This document shows, in pieces, positions 58,305 to 64,000 of a stretch of DNA of 64,000 bases (position 1 is the first letter of the stretch; the number at the start of each line of letters is the position of its first letter). The DNA comes from Phosphitispora fastidiosa (GTDB lineage: Bacteria > Bacillota > Thermincolia > Thermincolales > UBA2595), in assembly GCF_019008365.1 (NCBI RefSeq), contig NZ_JAHHUL010000019.1:1-64000 (forward strand). The letters are read 5' to 3'. The position numbers were made by a program, and so were the translations under genes. The notes below the pieces were generated by a model. The model did no database searches. It saw only the letters and a list, made by a program, of their open reading frames with translations, and had not been told where the DNA came from.

Positions 58305-58363
58305 TGGAACTCCTTTATACTTATCTCATTATCTGATATAAATTAAACTTCGGAGGTATGATT

Positions 58364-59635
58364 ATGCGCAGGTATCTATGTATAAGTCTAATCATTTTTT
58401 TACTGCTGCCCTCCTGGTCATGGGCTGCCCAGAATAATCAGGAAGTCAGCCTGATTGACCCGCAGGTATTAAATGATGTTAAGGGGCTTCAACTGGCGGG
58501 GAAGCAGACTGTTATTACCAATAACGGTAAAAGTGTTAAGCTTACCGGGCTGTACCGCTTTCAGAACACCGGGGAAGATGTCGTGGTGTTGTTGGGACTG
58601 CCTGAGTCATTAAAAAAGCTTTCTACCGGGTTTGACACTGAGTTAAAACCGGAAAATGTGAAATTTGTTGCCGGAGGAAGTCTCCAGAAGGCGAAAACCG
58701 CGGAAAAGTCAAAAACCATTTCCGGAAAAGAGCTGAAAGGGGCCTGGATGACCTGGGAAGTTCCGGCCAAGGCCAAAACTGTCGTCGAAATCAGACTGAT
58801 TTATTCAATTGATAAGATACCTTTTGGCAGCAGTGTTCAGATTCAGTATCTTCCTGCAGCAGAGCCCAGCCCGTCGCCAAACCTGAAGAGTGTCCGGACA
58901 GTTATGGATTTGGGACCGTTCTCGCCTGCTGAGGTAACAGAATTACAGCCAGAAGGGTACAAACTGAATCCGGCTTCAGTTGTCTGGGATTCTTCTGTTA
59001 ATAGTCCTGACTCTGGAACGACCGAAGGGGAAGAGAGCTATATAATCAGACTGGACAATTCCCTGAGGACAGCTTACGCTAAATATTTTAAGGGCGAAGA
59101 CAAAAAAGCCCTGGATGAAGCGGTAAGTCTATTAGCAGCCAGAAACTTCAAAGAAGCTGCTGCCAAGCTGAAACCCTTGTCCGGGAAGCAGGGCTTTAAT
59201 GCCGAACAGAGGGAATACCTGAGTTTTGCTACTGCCGCCGTTGATTTGGGGCAAAAGGATTATCCGGCAGTTATTGATGACCTGAAGGCTGTAGACCCTG
59301 ACAAGCTGCAATTATCTGAAGACCAGACCGTATTTAAGGGTTTGTATTTTTATTATTTGACCCAAGCCTACAAAGACAGCGGCAAATTTGATGAACTTCA
59401 GGATTTGGCCGATAGAGGGCGAAAGGCCGGTCTGAGTTCGTTAATGCAAGAGTGGCTTGGCGTTACCTCAAAACGGATGCAAAATGTGGAAAACATCATG
59501 GAAGGGAAATCTCCTGACACGCCTGTCTATGGTTCCGATAATATTGACGGAATAACAGTCTGGGTTATCTTTTTAGTTGTGCTTCTGGCTGCCGGTGCAG
59601 GCGGGGCGTGGTATTCCCGAAAAAAGAAGAAGTAG
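58364..59635 (+). CDS. Secreted TPR-like protein with C-terminal anchor
   Basis: A 423-residue protein with a signal peptide (cleavage near SWAAQ), a beta-rich domain (about 25-215), helical repeats at about 225-380 (LDEAVSLLAARNFKEAAAK, FKGLYFYYLTQAYKDSGKFD) and a C-terminal helix followed by RKKKK. The topology is extracellular with one membrane tether. ATG at 58364 is preferred to 58358, which lies too near GGAGG (58352-58356). I do not recognise a family; its place between galE and an efflux operon does not reveal its job. Confidence 0.8.
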   Translation: MRRYLCISLIIFLLLPSWSWAAQNNQEVSLIDPQVLNDVKGLQLAGKQTVITNNGKSVKLTGLYRFQNTGEDVVVLLGLPESLKKLSTGFDTELKPENVKFVAGGSLQKAKTAEKSKTISGKELKGAWMTWEVPAKAKTVVEIRLIYSIDKIPFGSSVQIQYLPAAEPSPSPNLKSVRTVMDLGPFSPAEVTELQPEGYKLNPASVVWDSSVNSPDSGTTEGEESYIIRLDNSLRTAYAKYFKGEDKKALDEAVSLLAARNFKEAAAKLKPLSGKQGFNAEQREYLSFATAAVDLGQKDYPAVIDDLKAVDPDKLQLSEDQTVFKGLYFYYLTQAYKDSGKFDELQDLADRGRKAGLSSLMQEWLGVTSKRMQNVENIMEGKSPDTPVYGSDNIDGITVWVIFLVVLLAAGAGGAWYSRKKKK

Positions 59636-59644
59636 CTGTTACTT

Positions 59645-59674
59645 ACCGGGCAGGGACAACCTGTCCGGTTTTTG
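59645..59674 (+). terminator. Terminator after secreted TPR-like gene
   Basis: ACCGGGCAGG and CCTGTCCGGT form a 10-bp stem with a GACAA loop, followed by TTTTG. Confidence 0.88.
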
Positions 59675-59706
59675 CGTTTTGGCCACACGTTTTCGCCGGC
59701 TCCTTA

Positions 59707-59735
59707 TTGACAAATATAGGGCACAGAGGTATACT
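59707..59735 (+). promoter_or_regulatory. Promoter of the efflux operon
   Basis: A consensus TTGACA (59707-59712), 17 bases, TATACT (59730-59735). Confidence 0.8.
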
Positions 59736-59742
59736 GATTTTA

Positions 59743-59758
59743 GACTGACCCGTCGGTC
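59743..59758 (+). promoter_or_regulatory. TetR-type operator
   Basis: GACTGACCCGTCGGTC is an imperfect palindrome (six of eight half-site bases match) of the GACCGAC type bound by many TetR regulators. It lies just after the promoter, near the start of transcription. The TetR gene at 62146 is in the same operon, so autoregulation is likely. Confidence 0.6.
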
Positions 59759-59782
59759 GGAAAATTAATGGAGGGGAATATT

Positions 59783-60940
59783 ATGGTCTATAACAGGGTG
59801 GTCAGACTTCCGGTCTTACTGCTGATGGCCTTCGCTTTAATTTTAGCTGTCGGATGCGGGAGCAAAGACAATAAGGCCGCAGGTGAGGACAAAGCTGTAC
59901 CGGTTACGGCAATGGAGGCCACGAAGGACAATATTTCGGCAAAGACGGTGATAACCGGAAAGGTTGCCCCGTCCTCTGAAGTAATAATCGTTCCCAAGAT
60001 TGGCGGAAGGGTTGCCCAGGTATCGGTGGATATCGGTTCCAAAGTGAAAAAGGGTGACCTGCTGCTGAAAACCGATACTACTGACCTCGAGATACAGCTT
60101 ACTGCCGCGATAAATGGTCTTACTAATGCAAAGCTGACCCATGACCAAGCCGTACTTAGCCATAACAATGCTAAAGCAAATTATGAACGTATGAAGTCCC
60201 TGTTTCAGGAAGGGGCTGTATCCCAGCAGCAGCTGGAACAGGCCGAACTGCAGTATAACCTCGCAAAGGATGCTATGAGCCAGCCGGTAGCGGAAACTGC
60301 CATGAATCAGGTTGACGGCATCAGACAGCAGATTGCAGATGCCGCGATAACTTCACCCATAGATGGTGAAGTTGCCACCAGGCAGATTGACCCCGGTGAG
60401 ATGGCCGGATCGTCTGCACCGGTAATGAGTGTAGTCAATATTGACACGGTATTTGTTGAAGGGACGATAGCAGAAAGCGATATTGCCCTGGTTAAAGAGG
60501 GGCAAGAGGTGATTGTCAGGGTAGATGCGACCGGAGGCAGTTTCACGGGAAAGGTAAAGCTGCTGAGCCCTGTGGCCAATCCCCAGACAAAGGGATATTC
60601 TGTTAAGATTGAGATAGATAATACAGACCGCAAGCTTAAACCGGGGATGTTTGCTGAAATTGAACTGATAACCAAAAGCAGGGAAGGTGTTGTGGTAATT
60701 CCCAAAGAAGCCCTTGTAACCAGGGATTCCGGGAAGGTAATCTATGTGGTAAAGGGCGGCGCCGTGGAACAGCGCCAGGTGGAGACCGGGATTGAGACAG
60801 ATAAAATGACAGAGATTGTGAATGGGCTGTCAGAGGGTGAAAAATTCGTCACAGAAGGCCAACACTCACTTGCAGACAAGACTAAGGTGACCGTCACAAA
60901 TGCAAATGATACCGACAGCAGTAAAAATAATGATAATTAA
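59783..60940 (+). CDS. HlyD/RND-type efflux adaptor lipoprotein
   Basis: A 385-residue membrane fusion protein. Signal peptide with lipobox LAVGC near residue 26, a biotinyl-lipoyl half (VPKIGGRVAQVSVDIGSKVK), a helical hairpin at about 105-165, the second lipoyl half (ITSPIDGEVATRQIDPGEM), then beta-barrel and C-terminal domains (VIPKEALVTRDSGKVIYVV). Such adaptors join an inner-membrane pump to a TolC channel. The pump gene is not in this operon. GGAGGGG sets the ATG at 59783. Confidence 0.92.
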   Translation: MVYNRVVRLPVLLLMAFALILAVGCGSKDNKAAGEDKAVPVTAMEATKDNISAKTVITGKVAPSSEVIIVPKIGGRVAQVSVDIGSKVKKGDLLLKTDTTDLEIQLTAAINGLTNAKLTHDQAVLSHNNAKANYERMKSLFQEGAVSQQQLEQAELQYNLAKDAMSQPVAETAMNQVDGIRQQIADAAITSPIDGEVATRQIDPGEMAGSSAPVMSVVNIDTVFVEGTIAESDIALVKEGQEVIVRVDATGGSFTGKVKLLSPVANPQTKGYSVKIEIDNTDRKLKPGMFAEIELITKSREGVVVIPKEALVTRDSGKVIYVVKGGAVEQRQVETGIETDKMTEIVNGLSEGEKFVTEGQHSLADKTKVTVTNANDTDSSKNNDN

Positions 60941-60952
60941 GGGGGAGAGCCA

Positions 60953-62092
60953 ATGTTAAGGCAGATATTGACGAAAAAACTATTTTTAGGGTTCCTGGTT
61001 TCTGTCCTCATGCTATCGGCTTTCGGAATCAACTATGCAGTTGGTGTCGATGGACCGGAGGTTAAGACCATCAGCCTGGAGGAAGCTACCGAATTGGCCA
61101 TGCAGAACAATCCGGATATGGAGATAGAGAGCCTGGCAGTTGAGAAAGCCCAGATTGAGCATGATGGCGCCAAGGCAACAGCAAAAACACATGAAAAGAA
61201 AGAAAAAAGGGACAGAGAGCACTATTATCTTACGTATGAAGTTGGGTTGCTAAGGTGGTTCAACCCCAAGGCAAAGGAAGTTGCCCTGGTACTGGCGGAA
61301 AAAAGGCAGGATGTAAATGAAAAGAAATTGAAGCTGGATGTGGAAAAGGCCTATTATGATGTCCTCAAGGCTGAGAAAGGCCTGGAGATAGAGCGGGCTG
61401 GCCTGAAATACTTCCAGGACCAGCTGAAAATAGCCCAAACGGCCTTTAAAGTGGGCACAAAGGCAAAACTGGATGTCACCACTGCTGAAGCTGCCGTAGC
61501 CGGTTACCAGGCCGCTGTAACCCGTGCTGAAAACACCTACCGGACCTCTGTGTTGGATTTGAACCGCATTATCGGACTGGACCTGGATACACCGCTGAAA
61601 CTAACCTCAAAGTTTGCCGTGGAAAAGGCCGGGGATTCCATAAACCTGCAGGAAACTATTACCCAAGCCTTGGAAGATAATATGGGCATTCTGTCAGCCA
61701 GAAAGACCCTGGAGCTTAATCAGGTAAAGTCTGATGTGACTAAAAAGTTTTATAACCAGGGTGTAACTGTTTATGAGACCGCTGAAATTGATAAAAAGAG
61801 CGCTGAGGCGAGTGTACGCAAGGAAGAAGTTGATACAACGGCCTCTGTCCGGAAAAGTTACCTGACCCTGTTCAGCCTGGAGAAAATGATTGATTGGCAG
61901 ACCAAGGAAGTGGAAAAAGCCAGGGAAAATGCGCGGGTCTTCATGCTAAAATATGAAGCCGGACTGGCTACCGCTCTGGATGCCAGAAACGCAGCCATAG
62001 ATCTGGAGACGGCTGAACAAAACCTGACAAATACTATTTATGATTATAACTTAACCAAGAGCCAGTTTAAATACCAGCTATTCACACCCTAA
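60953..62092 (+). CDS. TolC-family outer membrane efflux protein
   Basis: A 379-residue protein with a signal peptide (to about residue 30) and two OEP repeats (about 38-215 and 230-378), each made of long helices: SLEEATELAMQNNPDMEIES opens the first, NLQETITQALEDNMGILSAR the second. The hinge strands that would form the outer membrane barrel are short. TolC channels need an outer membrane, which the rest of the window does not suggest. It may work within the thick wall or S-layer. GGGGGAG precedes the ATG. Confidence 0.85.
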   Translation: MLRQILTKKLFLGFLVSVLMLSAFGINYAVGVDGPEVKTISLEEATELAMQNNPDMEIESLAVEKAQIEHDGAKATAKTHEKKEKRDREHYYLTYEVGLLRWFNPKAKEVALVLAEKRQDVNEKKLKLDVEKAYYDVLKAEKGLEIERAGLKYFQDQLKIAQTAFKVGTKAKLDVTTAEAAVAGYQAAVTRAENTYRTSVLDLNRIIGLDLDTPLKLTSKFAVEKAGDSINLQETITQALEDNMGILSARKTLELNQVKSDVTKKFYNQGVTVYETAEIDKKSAEASVRKEEVDTTASVRKSYLTLFSLEKMIDWQTKEVEKARENARVFMLKYEAGLATALDARNAAIDLETAEQNLTNTIYDYNLTKSQFKYQLFTP

Positions 62093-62145
62093 GCAGAGAA
62101 TGTCCCCGATAAAGGCAGGCAGGATTTCAGAAAGCAGGTGAAACA

Positions 62146-62742
62146 ATGGACCGCCCGGCTGAAAAAGATAAGCGGATCAAAATTATTAGAGCAGCAGTCA
62201 AGGTGTTTTCCCGGAAGGGGTTTCATGAGGCCAGGGTTGAGGAAATAGCCCAACTGGCCGATGTTGGGAAAGGTACGGTATACGAGTATTTTTCCAGTAA
62301 AACGGAACTGTTTCAGGAGATGTTTAAAGCCGGGATTCGGTTTTACCTGGACAGCCTGATTGACGATATCAGTCCTGACCTGTCCTCTAAAGAGAAACTG
62401 TCCCGAATTGCCCTGCTTCACCTGAGGTTTGTCAGCAATTATAAGGACCTGGCGAAAGTCACCATGACGGAACATACGTACTTTAATGAGGATTTCCGCA
62501 AATGGATGTGGGAGTACCGGGCCCGAAAGCTTGAAATGCTGAAACGGATAATTGATGAAGGCATTGACAGAGGGGAATTCCGGAAAATTGATTCCCGGGC
62601 AGTTGCCCTGGTTTTTATGGGAGCGCTTGGAGCCATGTTTTCGCCGCTTATATTTTCTGAAGAGCATGAAAATGCCAAAGCTTTAATCGAACCGGCCCTG
62701 GATATCATTATGAACGGCCTTATCGCCCCTGAAGGGCAGTAA
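62146..62742 (+). CDS. TetR family regulator
   Basis: A 198-residue repressor. The N-terminal helix-turn-helix is canonical: RAAVKVFSRKGFHEARVEEI, then ADVGKGTVYEYFSSKTELF. The ligand domain (about 75-198) has a TetR C-terminal pattern of helices. It is 53 bases after the TolC-like gene and probably controls the operon through the site at 59743. Confidence 0.94.
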   Translation: MDRPAEKDKRIKIIRAAVKVFSRKGFHEARVEEIAQLADVGKGTVYEYFSSKTELFQEMFKAGIRFYLDSLIDDISPDLSSKEKLSRIALLHLRFVSNYKDLAKVTMTEHTYFNEDFRKWMWEYRARKLEMLKRIIDEGIDRGEFRKIDSRAVALVFMGALGAMFSPLIFSEEHENAKALIEPALDIIMNGLIAPEGQ

Positions 62743-63058
62743 GGTGAAAGGGGTTTCATATTTCTGACGCTGATTTTAACCTAAATAGGGGTAGATGTAT
62801 TCCCGGACGGCGGACAGACCCCGCGTTCCGGAAACCATCTGCCCCTATCTTCATCACAGCTTAATGGTTCCGGAGCAGGCAGCGCGCTCAATGACAGAAC
62901 CTTGCAGTTCCGGTAACAATTCCCGACGCAGGAAAAATGGCATCATCTGTCGAAGAACTAATATGATTTACCAAAAATAAGAAGGCAGCTAAAGGTGAAA
63001 CCTTACTTAAGGAGAAAACTGATAAAGTGAAACATAACTAAAGGAGAAGACTGATTAA
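62743..63058 (+). other. Intergenic region before manC
   Basis: 316 bases without a credible coding frame. It has a long hairpin at 62785-62848 (ATAGGGGTAGATG with CATCTGCCCCTAT, plus inner CCGGA/TCCGG) and a direct repeat at 63009-63065. No clear sigma-A promoter is visible. Confidence 0.6.
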
Positions 63059-63065
63059 GTGAAAC
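63009..63065 (+). repeat. Duplicated ribosome site and start of manC
   Basis: Two copies, 63009-63033 and 63041-63065, match in 23 of 25 bases, period 32. Each holds AAGGAGAA, then GTGAAAC. The first GTG (63027) codes only four codons, MKHN, whose stop overlaps the second ribosome site; the second GTG (63059) starts manC. Confidence 0.85.
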
Positions 63066-64000
63066 AAAAACAGCAGGTATCACATAAAATCAGTATTGTG
63101 ATTATGGCGGGGGGCAGGGGGGAACGCTTCTGGCCCCGCAGCAGGGTTGGCAGGCCCAAACAATTTGCTGACCTGACGGGAAAGGGCAGTATGCTGTACC
63201 TTACTTATAACAGGGCGCTGAAGCTGGTTCCTCCGGAACGCATTTTTGTCGTTACCGGGGCTGAGTACCGGGAGGTTACCAAAGAATGCCTTCCCGAGCT
63301 GCCACAGGAAAATATTATCATCGAACCTGAGGGAAGGAACACCGCACCCTGTATCGGACTGGCTGCAGTTACCCTGGAGCAGCGGCAGCCCGGAGCCATA
63401 ATGGCAGTCCTTCCTGCTGACCATCTGATAACAGGTGAAAATGAATTTGTCGGAGCCCTGGAGGTAGCTGCCGGGCTGGCAGAAGAGACTGGTGGGCTGG
63501 TTACCGTCGGAATCAGGCCCGACAGGCCGGAGACCGGTTATGGATATTTACGGGTAGGGAAACCAAGTTCAACAGCAGATGGAAAGACTGTTTATCGGGT
63601 TGACAGTTTTGTTGAAAAACCCGATCCGGTCAGGGCGCAGTTGTATCTCCAGGATGGCGGGTATCTCTGGAATGCGGGCATTTTTGTGTGGCAGGCCTCT
63701 GCTGTCCTTGACGAATTTAGTAACCACCTTCCCGGGATATATGCAGGGCTGCAGCAAATATGCAGTTATCTCGGTACAGAGAAATACGAGGAAGTGCTGC
63801 AGAGGATTTACCCCTGTTTAGATAAGATTTCCATAGACTACGGCATTATGGAAAAGGCAGACCGGGTTTACACCGTACCAGGTGAATTTCATTGGGATGA
63901 TGTGGGTACCTGGATGTCTCTGGAACGCGTTTTCGGGACTGACAATAATGGCAACATGTTCCGTGGGAAAGTGGTCTCCCTGAACACAGAAAACAGTATT
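63059..64000 (+). CDS. manC: Mannose-1-phosphate guanylyltransferase (partial)
   Basis: The first 314 residues; the gene runs off the window end, the family being about 350 residues in its short form. IVIMAGGRGERFWPRSRVGR and PKQFADL are the GTP loop, EPEGRNTAPCIGLAAVTL and VLPADHLI follow, then VDSFVEKPDPVRAQLYL, LWNAGIFVWQAS and FHWDDVGTWMSLERV. It makes GDP-mannose from mannose-1-phosphate for gmd at 38188. GTG at 63059, behind AAGGAGAAG 12 bases upstream. Confidence 0.95.
   Translation, partial: MKQKQQVSHKISIVIMAGGRGERFWPRSRVGRPKQFADLTGKGSMLYLTYNRALKLVPPERIFVVTGAEYREVTKECLPELPQENIIIEPEGRNTAPCIGLAAVTLEQRQPGAIMAVLPADHLITGENEFVGALEVAAGLAEETGGLVTVGIRPDRPETGYGYLRVGKPSSTADGKTVYRVDSFVEKPDPVRAQLYLQDGGYLWNAGIFVWQASAVLDEFSNHLPGIYAGLQQICSYLGTEKYEEVLQRIYPCLDKISIDYGIMEKADRVYTVPGEFHWDDVGTWMSLERVFGTDNNGNMFRGKVVSLNTENSI

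Follow-up and report, generated by a model that had tools for sequence, protein, structure and literature searches.

A barrel-less TolC-like protein encoded with an RND-type adaptor in Phosphitispora fastidiosa, a probable efflux exit tube

The first 64,000 nucleotides of contig NZ_JAHHUL010000019.1 of Phosphitispora fastidiosa (the window hereafter; contig C19 of genome G000, a draft of 4.09 Mb with a completeness of 99.96) carry a small operon in which a promoter is followed by an operator and then by the genes of an adaptor, a TolC-like protein and a TetR regulator. No barrel is present in the TolC-like protein, and an RND permease gene located elsewhere in the genome, which has no adaptor gene next to it, is preceded by the same type of operator. 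We consider it fairly probable that this operon supplies an RND efflux system with its adaptor and exit tube, in a cell devoid of outer membrane. Furthermore, in a sample of the phylum, barrel-less proteins of this type have a barrelled partner nearby in genomes that encode Omp85 and none in genomes that do not.

The TolC-like protein, its adaptor and the cell envelope

The TolC-like protein matches the family OEP (PF02321) with 93 bits (cut-off 22) in two stretches, which correspond to the two repeats of the superfamily. The profile, which has 187 positions, aligns with these repeats only from positions 86 and 81 on, so that the strand region is not covered. The score against TIGR01844 (TolC family outer membrane protein) is 61.7 bits, below the curated cut-off of 225.15. 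In a phmmer alignment with E. coli TolC, residues 102-255 and 294-376 correspond to residues 81-232 and 322-404, and repeat 2 has 38 residues where E. coli TolC has 89. Orthologues differ in length at the first turn.

The AlphaFold model (single chain, 20 aligned sequences; mean predicted local distance difference test score (pLDDT) 88.0, predicted template modelling score 0.79) contains nine helices, the first of which is the signal peptide, hairpin turns near 87-94 and 266-270, two strands of three residues each (38-40 and 215-217) and no barrel strands. As a control, the barrelled OEP protein of the Omp85-positive locus L037, DUSO01000037.1, modelled likewise from 19 sequences (mean pLDDT 82.8), shows six strands (80-88, 101-113, 288-296, 300-308, 312-323 and 334-342). 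Foldseek returned 44 PDB matches at E<=0.001, with 1ek9 at a template modelling score of 0.75 by query length. Their titles name TolC, ST50, OprM, SilC, CusC, OprN, CmeC, VceC, MtrE or NodT-type channels, TMexCD1-TOprJ1 or another efflux assembly, except for 5azo, 5azp and 5azs, titled merely as a P. aeruginosa membrane protein. Judged from the model, the nearest folds are outer-membrane efflux channels; from alignment and model together, both beta-hairpin insertions that would form the outer-membrane barrel are missing. The full TolC-like protein announced by a sequence-only reading of the window was not borne out: the profile start positions, the alignment lengths, the common alignment described below and the model exclude it, and the prediction of a TolC-like barrel structure, which that reading had suggested, gave an all-helical protein.

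The protein was found in 8 of the 10 genomes analysed from the class, including all seven of those that are at least 90% complete. G000 carries one OEP protein, the third match to the OEP search being the adaptor; the profile search found no second one in this genome, unlike in its class relatives G004 and G009. In these two, short OEP-like proteins are encoded directly 3' of MacB-type permeases (L011, G004:C55, 1477-2724; L016, G009:C7, 1477-2652). Another OEP-like gene of G004 (L012, G004:C37, 1483-2167, minus strand) is apparently split into two frames; it adjoins an ABC ATPase gene and genes that, by eye, are rich in haem motifs.

The adaptor gene, already recognized from the sequence alone, is real and of RND type, its product scoring 216.1 bits against TIGR01730 (RND_mfp; cut-off 94.9). 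By eye, the ATG at 59783, located behind GGAGGGG, is its likelier start. The TolC-like protein has a glycine-aspartate pattern at both tips, which we take to resemble those of TolC. In the adaptor, residues 141-152 form an RLS motif (RxxxLxxxxxxS), the motif that builds the TolC-binding tip in MacA, AcrA and MexA (PMC3391258; here and below, papers are cited for the passages of them that were available).

The sequence-only reading had hesitated between a function in the wall/S-layer space and the presence of an outer layer, and had proposed a search for BamA, outer-membrane genes being what would contradict it. A search for Omp85 (PF01103; Lpx and OmpM not included) found no match in the ten class genomes, G000 among them, a result that favours the first option over the second; with the missing barrel, it also argues against a conduit embedded in an outer membrane. 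The genes for an LCP protein, a CsaB-type pyruvyl transferase and SLH proteins listed in that reading are all present in the window, and T. potens is described as Gram-positive (PMC4137172). The cell appears to have a single membrane. An outer layer built by something other than Omp85 could in principle hold the protein, as the absence of Omp85 says nothing about other kinds of layers. We regard this as highly improbable in view of the same 10/10 genomes, of the wall and S-layer genes of the window, of the Gram-positive description of T. potens and of a model that contains no membrane-spanning barrel.

The operator and the candidate pump

The inverted repeat that immediately follows the operon promoter is found at the same position in the operons of other class genomes. 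Its 16-base core is perfect in G001, G002, G003, G004, G006 and G008, with one mismatch in G009. The complete 19-base repeat shows no change in G001, G002, G003 and G008 and a single altered base in G004. The TetR operator proposed just after the promoter is therefore backed by conservation in class relatives, and a conserved inverted repeat at its own promoter is what a putative autoregulated TetR-type operon would display. A more symmetrical form of the repeat (three differences) lies directly behind the -10 box of one adaptor-less RND gene (G000:C6:97975-101145), and like forms precede the relatives of this gene in the class.

The ten class genomes were scanned for GACYGACYNGTCGGTC, which gave 15 distinct perfect sites. 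Seven precede the adaptor-OEP operon (G000, G001, G002, G003, G004, G006 and G008) and eight precede the RND gene (G000, G002, G003, G004, G005, G007, G008 and G009), so that two operon types account for all of them; every perfect site sits behind a TTGACA-type promoter. Both operons were found in six genomes: in five, the sites are perfect at both, and G009 has one perfect site and one with a mismatch. About 0.03 perfect matches per genome are expected by chance (calculated by hand with equal base frequencies for 13 fixed and 2 two-fold positions on both strands), and G000 has two places. The TetR protein is thus probably the repressor of both the window operon and the unlinked RND gene.

The site of G007 lies 18 bases from a contig end and was assigned through its divergent neighbour gene alone. 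This neighbour resembles, by eye, a squalene cyclase gene, with a 64% identical counterpart beside the RND gene of G003; in both loci (L184, G003:C33; L207, G007:C12) the gene is divergent from the operator-linked RND site. In five further class genomes, no match to it was found at the RND loci. The operator-linked RND pump may have a lipid-like substrate.

No pump gene was found in or beside the operon anywhere in the window, nor in the regions flanking its counterparts in the genus-mates. The claim that adaptor and channel lack a pump thus holds for the operon, not for the genome, where the unlinked adaptor-less RND gene shares the operator. G000 encodes four full-length RND permeases and has seven MacB_PCD matches; an adaptor adjoins two of the RND genes, and the other two have none. 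The operator-linked gene on C6, which scores 800.9 bits against RND_permease_2 (cut-off 1250), has no adaptor next to it and, from its operator, is the probable pump for the adaptor and tube of the window.

The adaptor and tube could instead serve other pumps, either MacB-type permeases or a second RND type without an adjoining adaptor gene, in which case the operator common to both operons would reflect a common stress response rather than one machine. This second RND type (L101, G000:C22, 8020-11826, and its relatives) occurs in 10/10 class genomes, has a TetR-labelled neighbour in 9/10, may have its adaptor and conduit in those of the window and may even be their main user. In addition, G001, which is 99% complete, keeps the operon and its operator, and no pump of the shared-operator type was found in it; furthermore, one OEP protein stands against four RND genes and seven MacB_PCD matches in G000. 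The operator-linked RND gene, however, has no adjoining adaptor of its own, and all 15 perfect sites belong to the two operon types, so that we hold this alternative to be rather unlikely. It would be compatible with service to the operator-linked pump if the tube were shared, as TolC is in E. coli.

In the explanation that we favour, namely an exit tube for the operator-linked RND pump, the TolC-like protein, which has the helical repeats of TolC and lacks both beta-hairpins, would trimerize into a helical tube. Such a barrel-free tube would need neither an outer membrane nor the beta-barrel assembly machinery (BAM); Stubenrauch 2022 (PMC8809574) leaves open how a TolC-type tube assembles and functions in the absence of such a membrane. 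TetR would repress the window operon and the unlinked pump gene through one operator type, and an inducer would release it, so that pump, adaptor and tube are raised together. The lipoprotein-type adaptor would link the pump to the tube stacked upon it, and the assembled tube would lead the substrate across the inner zone of the wall in the direction of the S-layer.

The coordinates of the operon are given in Table 1. Its promoter ranks best of eight promoter-like sites in 59600-63100 (11/12; shuffles 4.7). Both genus-mates keep the gene order as well as the sugar genes on the flanks. On the 5' side (58358-59635), the window encodes a protein of 425 amino acids (aa) which has, by eye, a signal-peptide-like start and a C-terminal anchor, and for which no match was found in Pfam or NCBIfam.

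Table 1. Features of the adaptor-OEP operon, in window coordinates
Feature	Position	Strand	Basis or remark
Terminator-like hairpin and T run, 5' of the operon	59645..59669	+	5 such sites vs 4.7 expected (shuffles)
Promoter, -35 TTGACA, 17 bases, -10 TATACT	59707..59735	+	Kept in class relatives
Operator, 19 bases; 16-base core 59743-59758	59742..59760	+	Conserved in class
RND/MacA-type adaptor, lipobox-like N-terminus	59768..60940	+	Profile search; N-terminus by eye
Barrel-less TolC-like protein, 379 aa, signal-peptide-like N-terminus (by eye)	60953..62092	+	Profile, alignment, model
TetR-family regulator	62146..62742	+	PF00440, 61.7 bits

Barrel-less and barrelled proteins across the phylum

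Among 398 genomes sampled from the phylum, PF01103 matches occur in 101 (100 over the cut-off), SLH in 342 and matches to the TolC-like profile in at least 184 (E<=1e-8, at most five candidates scored per genome). The OEP matches listed come from 58 genomes, 56 of which are Omp85-positive; the remaining two are G090 and G365, the latter from a genus (g134) in which other members are Omp85-positive. In the 297 Omp85-negative genomes, the profile matches 114 of the 242 with SLH vs 1 of the 55 without (relatedness uncorrected), which agrees with the S-layer link seen for 12 proteins in Stubenrauch 2022 (PMC8809574).

Regions were drawn from the TolC-like profile matches listed, 40 from Omp85-positive and 33 from Omp85-negative genomes, to which those of G000, G001 and G002 were added; they were hand-picked, not random, before the pairing described below was known. 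Residues were counted between conserved anchors in both repeats of a common alignment. For the 36 proteins from Omp85-negative loci, the count is 71-102 residues in repeat 1 and 61-63 in repeat 2. In the 37 barrel-less proteins from Omp85-positive loci, it is 60 (36/37; one has 56) and then 62-63, and barrelled proteins have at least 87 and at least 92, fragments excepted. Compared with the usual 60 of Omp85-positive loci, the first hairpin of Omp85-negative proteins thus holds 11-42 extra, variable residues.

This variable hairpin and the SLH association are what would be expected if the channel were seated in the S-layer, the crystalline layer holding a remnant hydrophilic barrel as a substitute for an outer membrane (Stubenrauch 2022). 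For C. difficile, the model of the TolC-like protein does keep a hydrophilic part-barrel, and the protein is shed with the S-layer (PMC8809574). However, no barrel strands at all appear in the model of the window protein, and 128 of the 242 SLH-positive, Omp85-negative genomes have no profile match. For P. fastidiosa, we judge such a seat improbable.

Partners were sought by a six-frame search in which each protein was assigned to the higher-scoring of two profiles built from the sample itself; a partner counted as near if it lay on the same strand of the retrieved region, about 11 kilobases long at most. A barrelled partner lies near the barrel-less protein in 39/39 cases from the Omp85-positive and 0/37 from the Omp85-negative genomes of the sample. 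An earlier count made with a greedy open reading frame picker gave 34/37 vs 0/36 with three apparent exceptions; the six-frame search revealed partners for these three and added two pairs absent from the picker count. A contig end truncates some of the partners (e.g., L133, L135 and L137), and L156, which has a barrelled protein only, was left out. Paired and unpaired genomes belong to 18 and 25 families, respectively, none of which is in both groups.

Pairs are found, for example, in Candidatus Caldatribacterium saccharofermentans, Candidatus Caldatribacterium californiense, an Atribacteria metagenome-assembled genome and a Bacillota one. In three pairs sampled, Pfam places all six proteins in OEP, the best stretch starting at profile position 1 or 2 for the barrelled proteins vs 84 or 86 for the barrel-less ones. 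The surroundings also differ. Near the 36 Omp85-negative proteins, the adaptor label occurs 32 times, the RND label 28 times and the TetR label 29 times; near the 37 barrel-less proteins of Omp85-positive loci, the MacB label occurs 18 times and the RND label 8 times. These counts indicate that the usual monoderm operon contains adaptor, RND, OEP and TetR genes and that the split arrangement seen in the class of the window is a local variant.

The barrelled OEP directly adjoins the barrel-less one in 27 of the 34 pairs of the open reading frame picker count, and their shared fold would permit mixed trimers. The barrel-less protein could therefore be a subunit that mixes with other OEPs or helps them to assemble, with another adaptor-linked role in monoderms. 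Omp85-negative genomes nevertheless keep the protein with no barrelled partner nearby (0/37) and mostly in the company of an adaptor (32/36) and RND (28/36), which makes a mixing subunit distinctly improbable. In one locus (L132, G040:C137, 6071-8218, minus strand), a single frame encodes the C-terminal portion of an RND permease and then a barrelled OEP, and adjoins a barrel-less OEP; this frame is either a pump-channel fusion or an assembly error.

In the explanation that we favour, the barrel-less proteins would serve as a general tunnel segment throughout the phylum, the tube meeting a barrelled channel in cells with an outer membrane and ending in the wall/S-layer zone in monoderms. More tentatively, we propose that in outer-membrane Bacillota, Caldatribacterium and related bacteria they belong to four-part efflux pumps (pump, adaptor, barrel-less tunnel segment and separate barrelled channel), and that single-membrane Bacillota have the same machine minus the barrelled part. 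This wider proposal is plausible and falls somewhat short of an even chance. If it is true, barrel-less OEPs would be either remains of an outer-membrane ancestor or an ancestral tube that was later given a barrel, and the pair would be a countable marker of the diderm/monoderm transition. The split of partners according to Omp85 in the sample makes outer-membrane gain or loss scorable gene by gene in the phylum, and the pairing predicts a four-part pump that should be visible in a structure.

A FastTree phylogeny was built from 129 of 136 OEP frames after removal of short ones and of the duplicates L018 and L019. In it, barrel-less proteins part from barrelled ones at 0.959, except for two barrelled intruders on long branches (G341 and G155) among the barrel-less ones, and 37 monoderm-type proteins group together at 0.996, the Omp85-negative G342 remaining outside. 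The outline recurs, weakly supported, in a maximum-likelihood tree of 46 of these 129 proteins with its root on the barrelled ones; there the monoderm group takes in G342 and has a support of 56, and monoderm proteins plus most Omp85-positive barrel-less ones have 89. Since deep support is weak and intruders occur, no direction of evolution is claimed: one copy may have lost the barrel, or the other may have gained it.

Several observations weigh against the explanation by an exit tube of an RND pump, in addition to the two already given on G001 and on the second RND type. The deep split of the maximum-likelihood tree, at 40-63, is weak for a single barrel-less origin. SLH is so common that its link with the profile may reflect shared ancestry. 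Of 36 monoderm proteins, just 13 have the glycine-aspartate pattern in both repeats, and 10 lack it altogether; it is variable among barrelled proteins too, and this unevenness slightly reduces our confidence in the explanation. The model covers a single chain built from 20 sequences, so that the shape of the tube is extrapolated from it. When one mismatch is allowed, the operator pattern gives 27 matches (19 distinct places) vs 17 for the reversed control pattern; the case therefore rests on the perfect sites and their position, and no one-mismatch place was used except that of G009, located behind the promoter of the right operon (the three others are two in G006 and one in G008). Lastly, surface extracts of Desulfotomaculum reducens, a Gram-positive relative, contained one OEP-family and two HlyD-family proteins, which speaks for expression of these families in such a cell, but the authors also report cell lysis in the extracts (PMC4137172).

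Comparison with known systems

TolC-like proteins with an incomplete barrel have already been published for monoderm Firmicutes (Stubenrauch 2022, PMC8809574). The window protein resembles them in being encoded by an apparently single-membrane Firmicute that has S-layer proteins and no BAM, and in its omission of barrel parts, as in the C. difficile model, in which part of the beta-barrel is omitted. It differs from them in that both hairpins are gone. Moreover, these proteins are often encoded in one operon with adaptor and pump, whereas the pump proposed here is unlinked and was found via the shared operator. The same paper mentions two putative TolC-like genes in an operon of L. gingivalis; its available passages contain no account of a barrel-less protein encoded next to a barrelled one in relatives with an outer membrane.

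Outer-membrane Firmicutes (Veillonella, Halanaerobiales) likewise have adaptor, pump and OEP genes. In the passages available, the papers on Veillonella mention TolC only (PMC5491611, PMC10665443), whereas the Omp85-positive loci sampled here hold both a barrelled and a barrel-less OEP. No report of paired barrel-less and barrelled OEPs was found among the papers listed in the literature searches, outside of which lay preprints and most subscription journals. Neither the paired arrangement, nor its split according to Omp85, nor the two-operon regulon was seen in this literature.

In E. coli, acrAB is under TetR-type control. The window system shares with TolC and AcrAB-TolC the fold of the helical part, the RLS motif of the adaptor and a conduit gene unlinked to the pump gene. 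It differs from them by the lack of a transmembrane beta-barrel and of Omp85, and by a conduit that is encoded with the adaptor.

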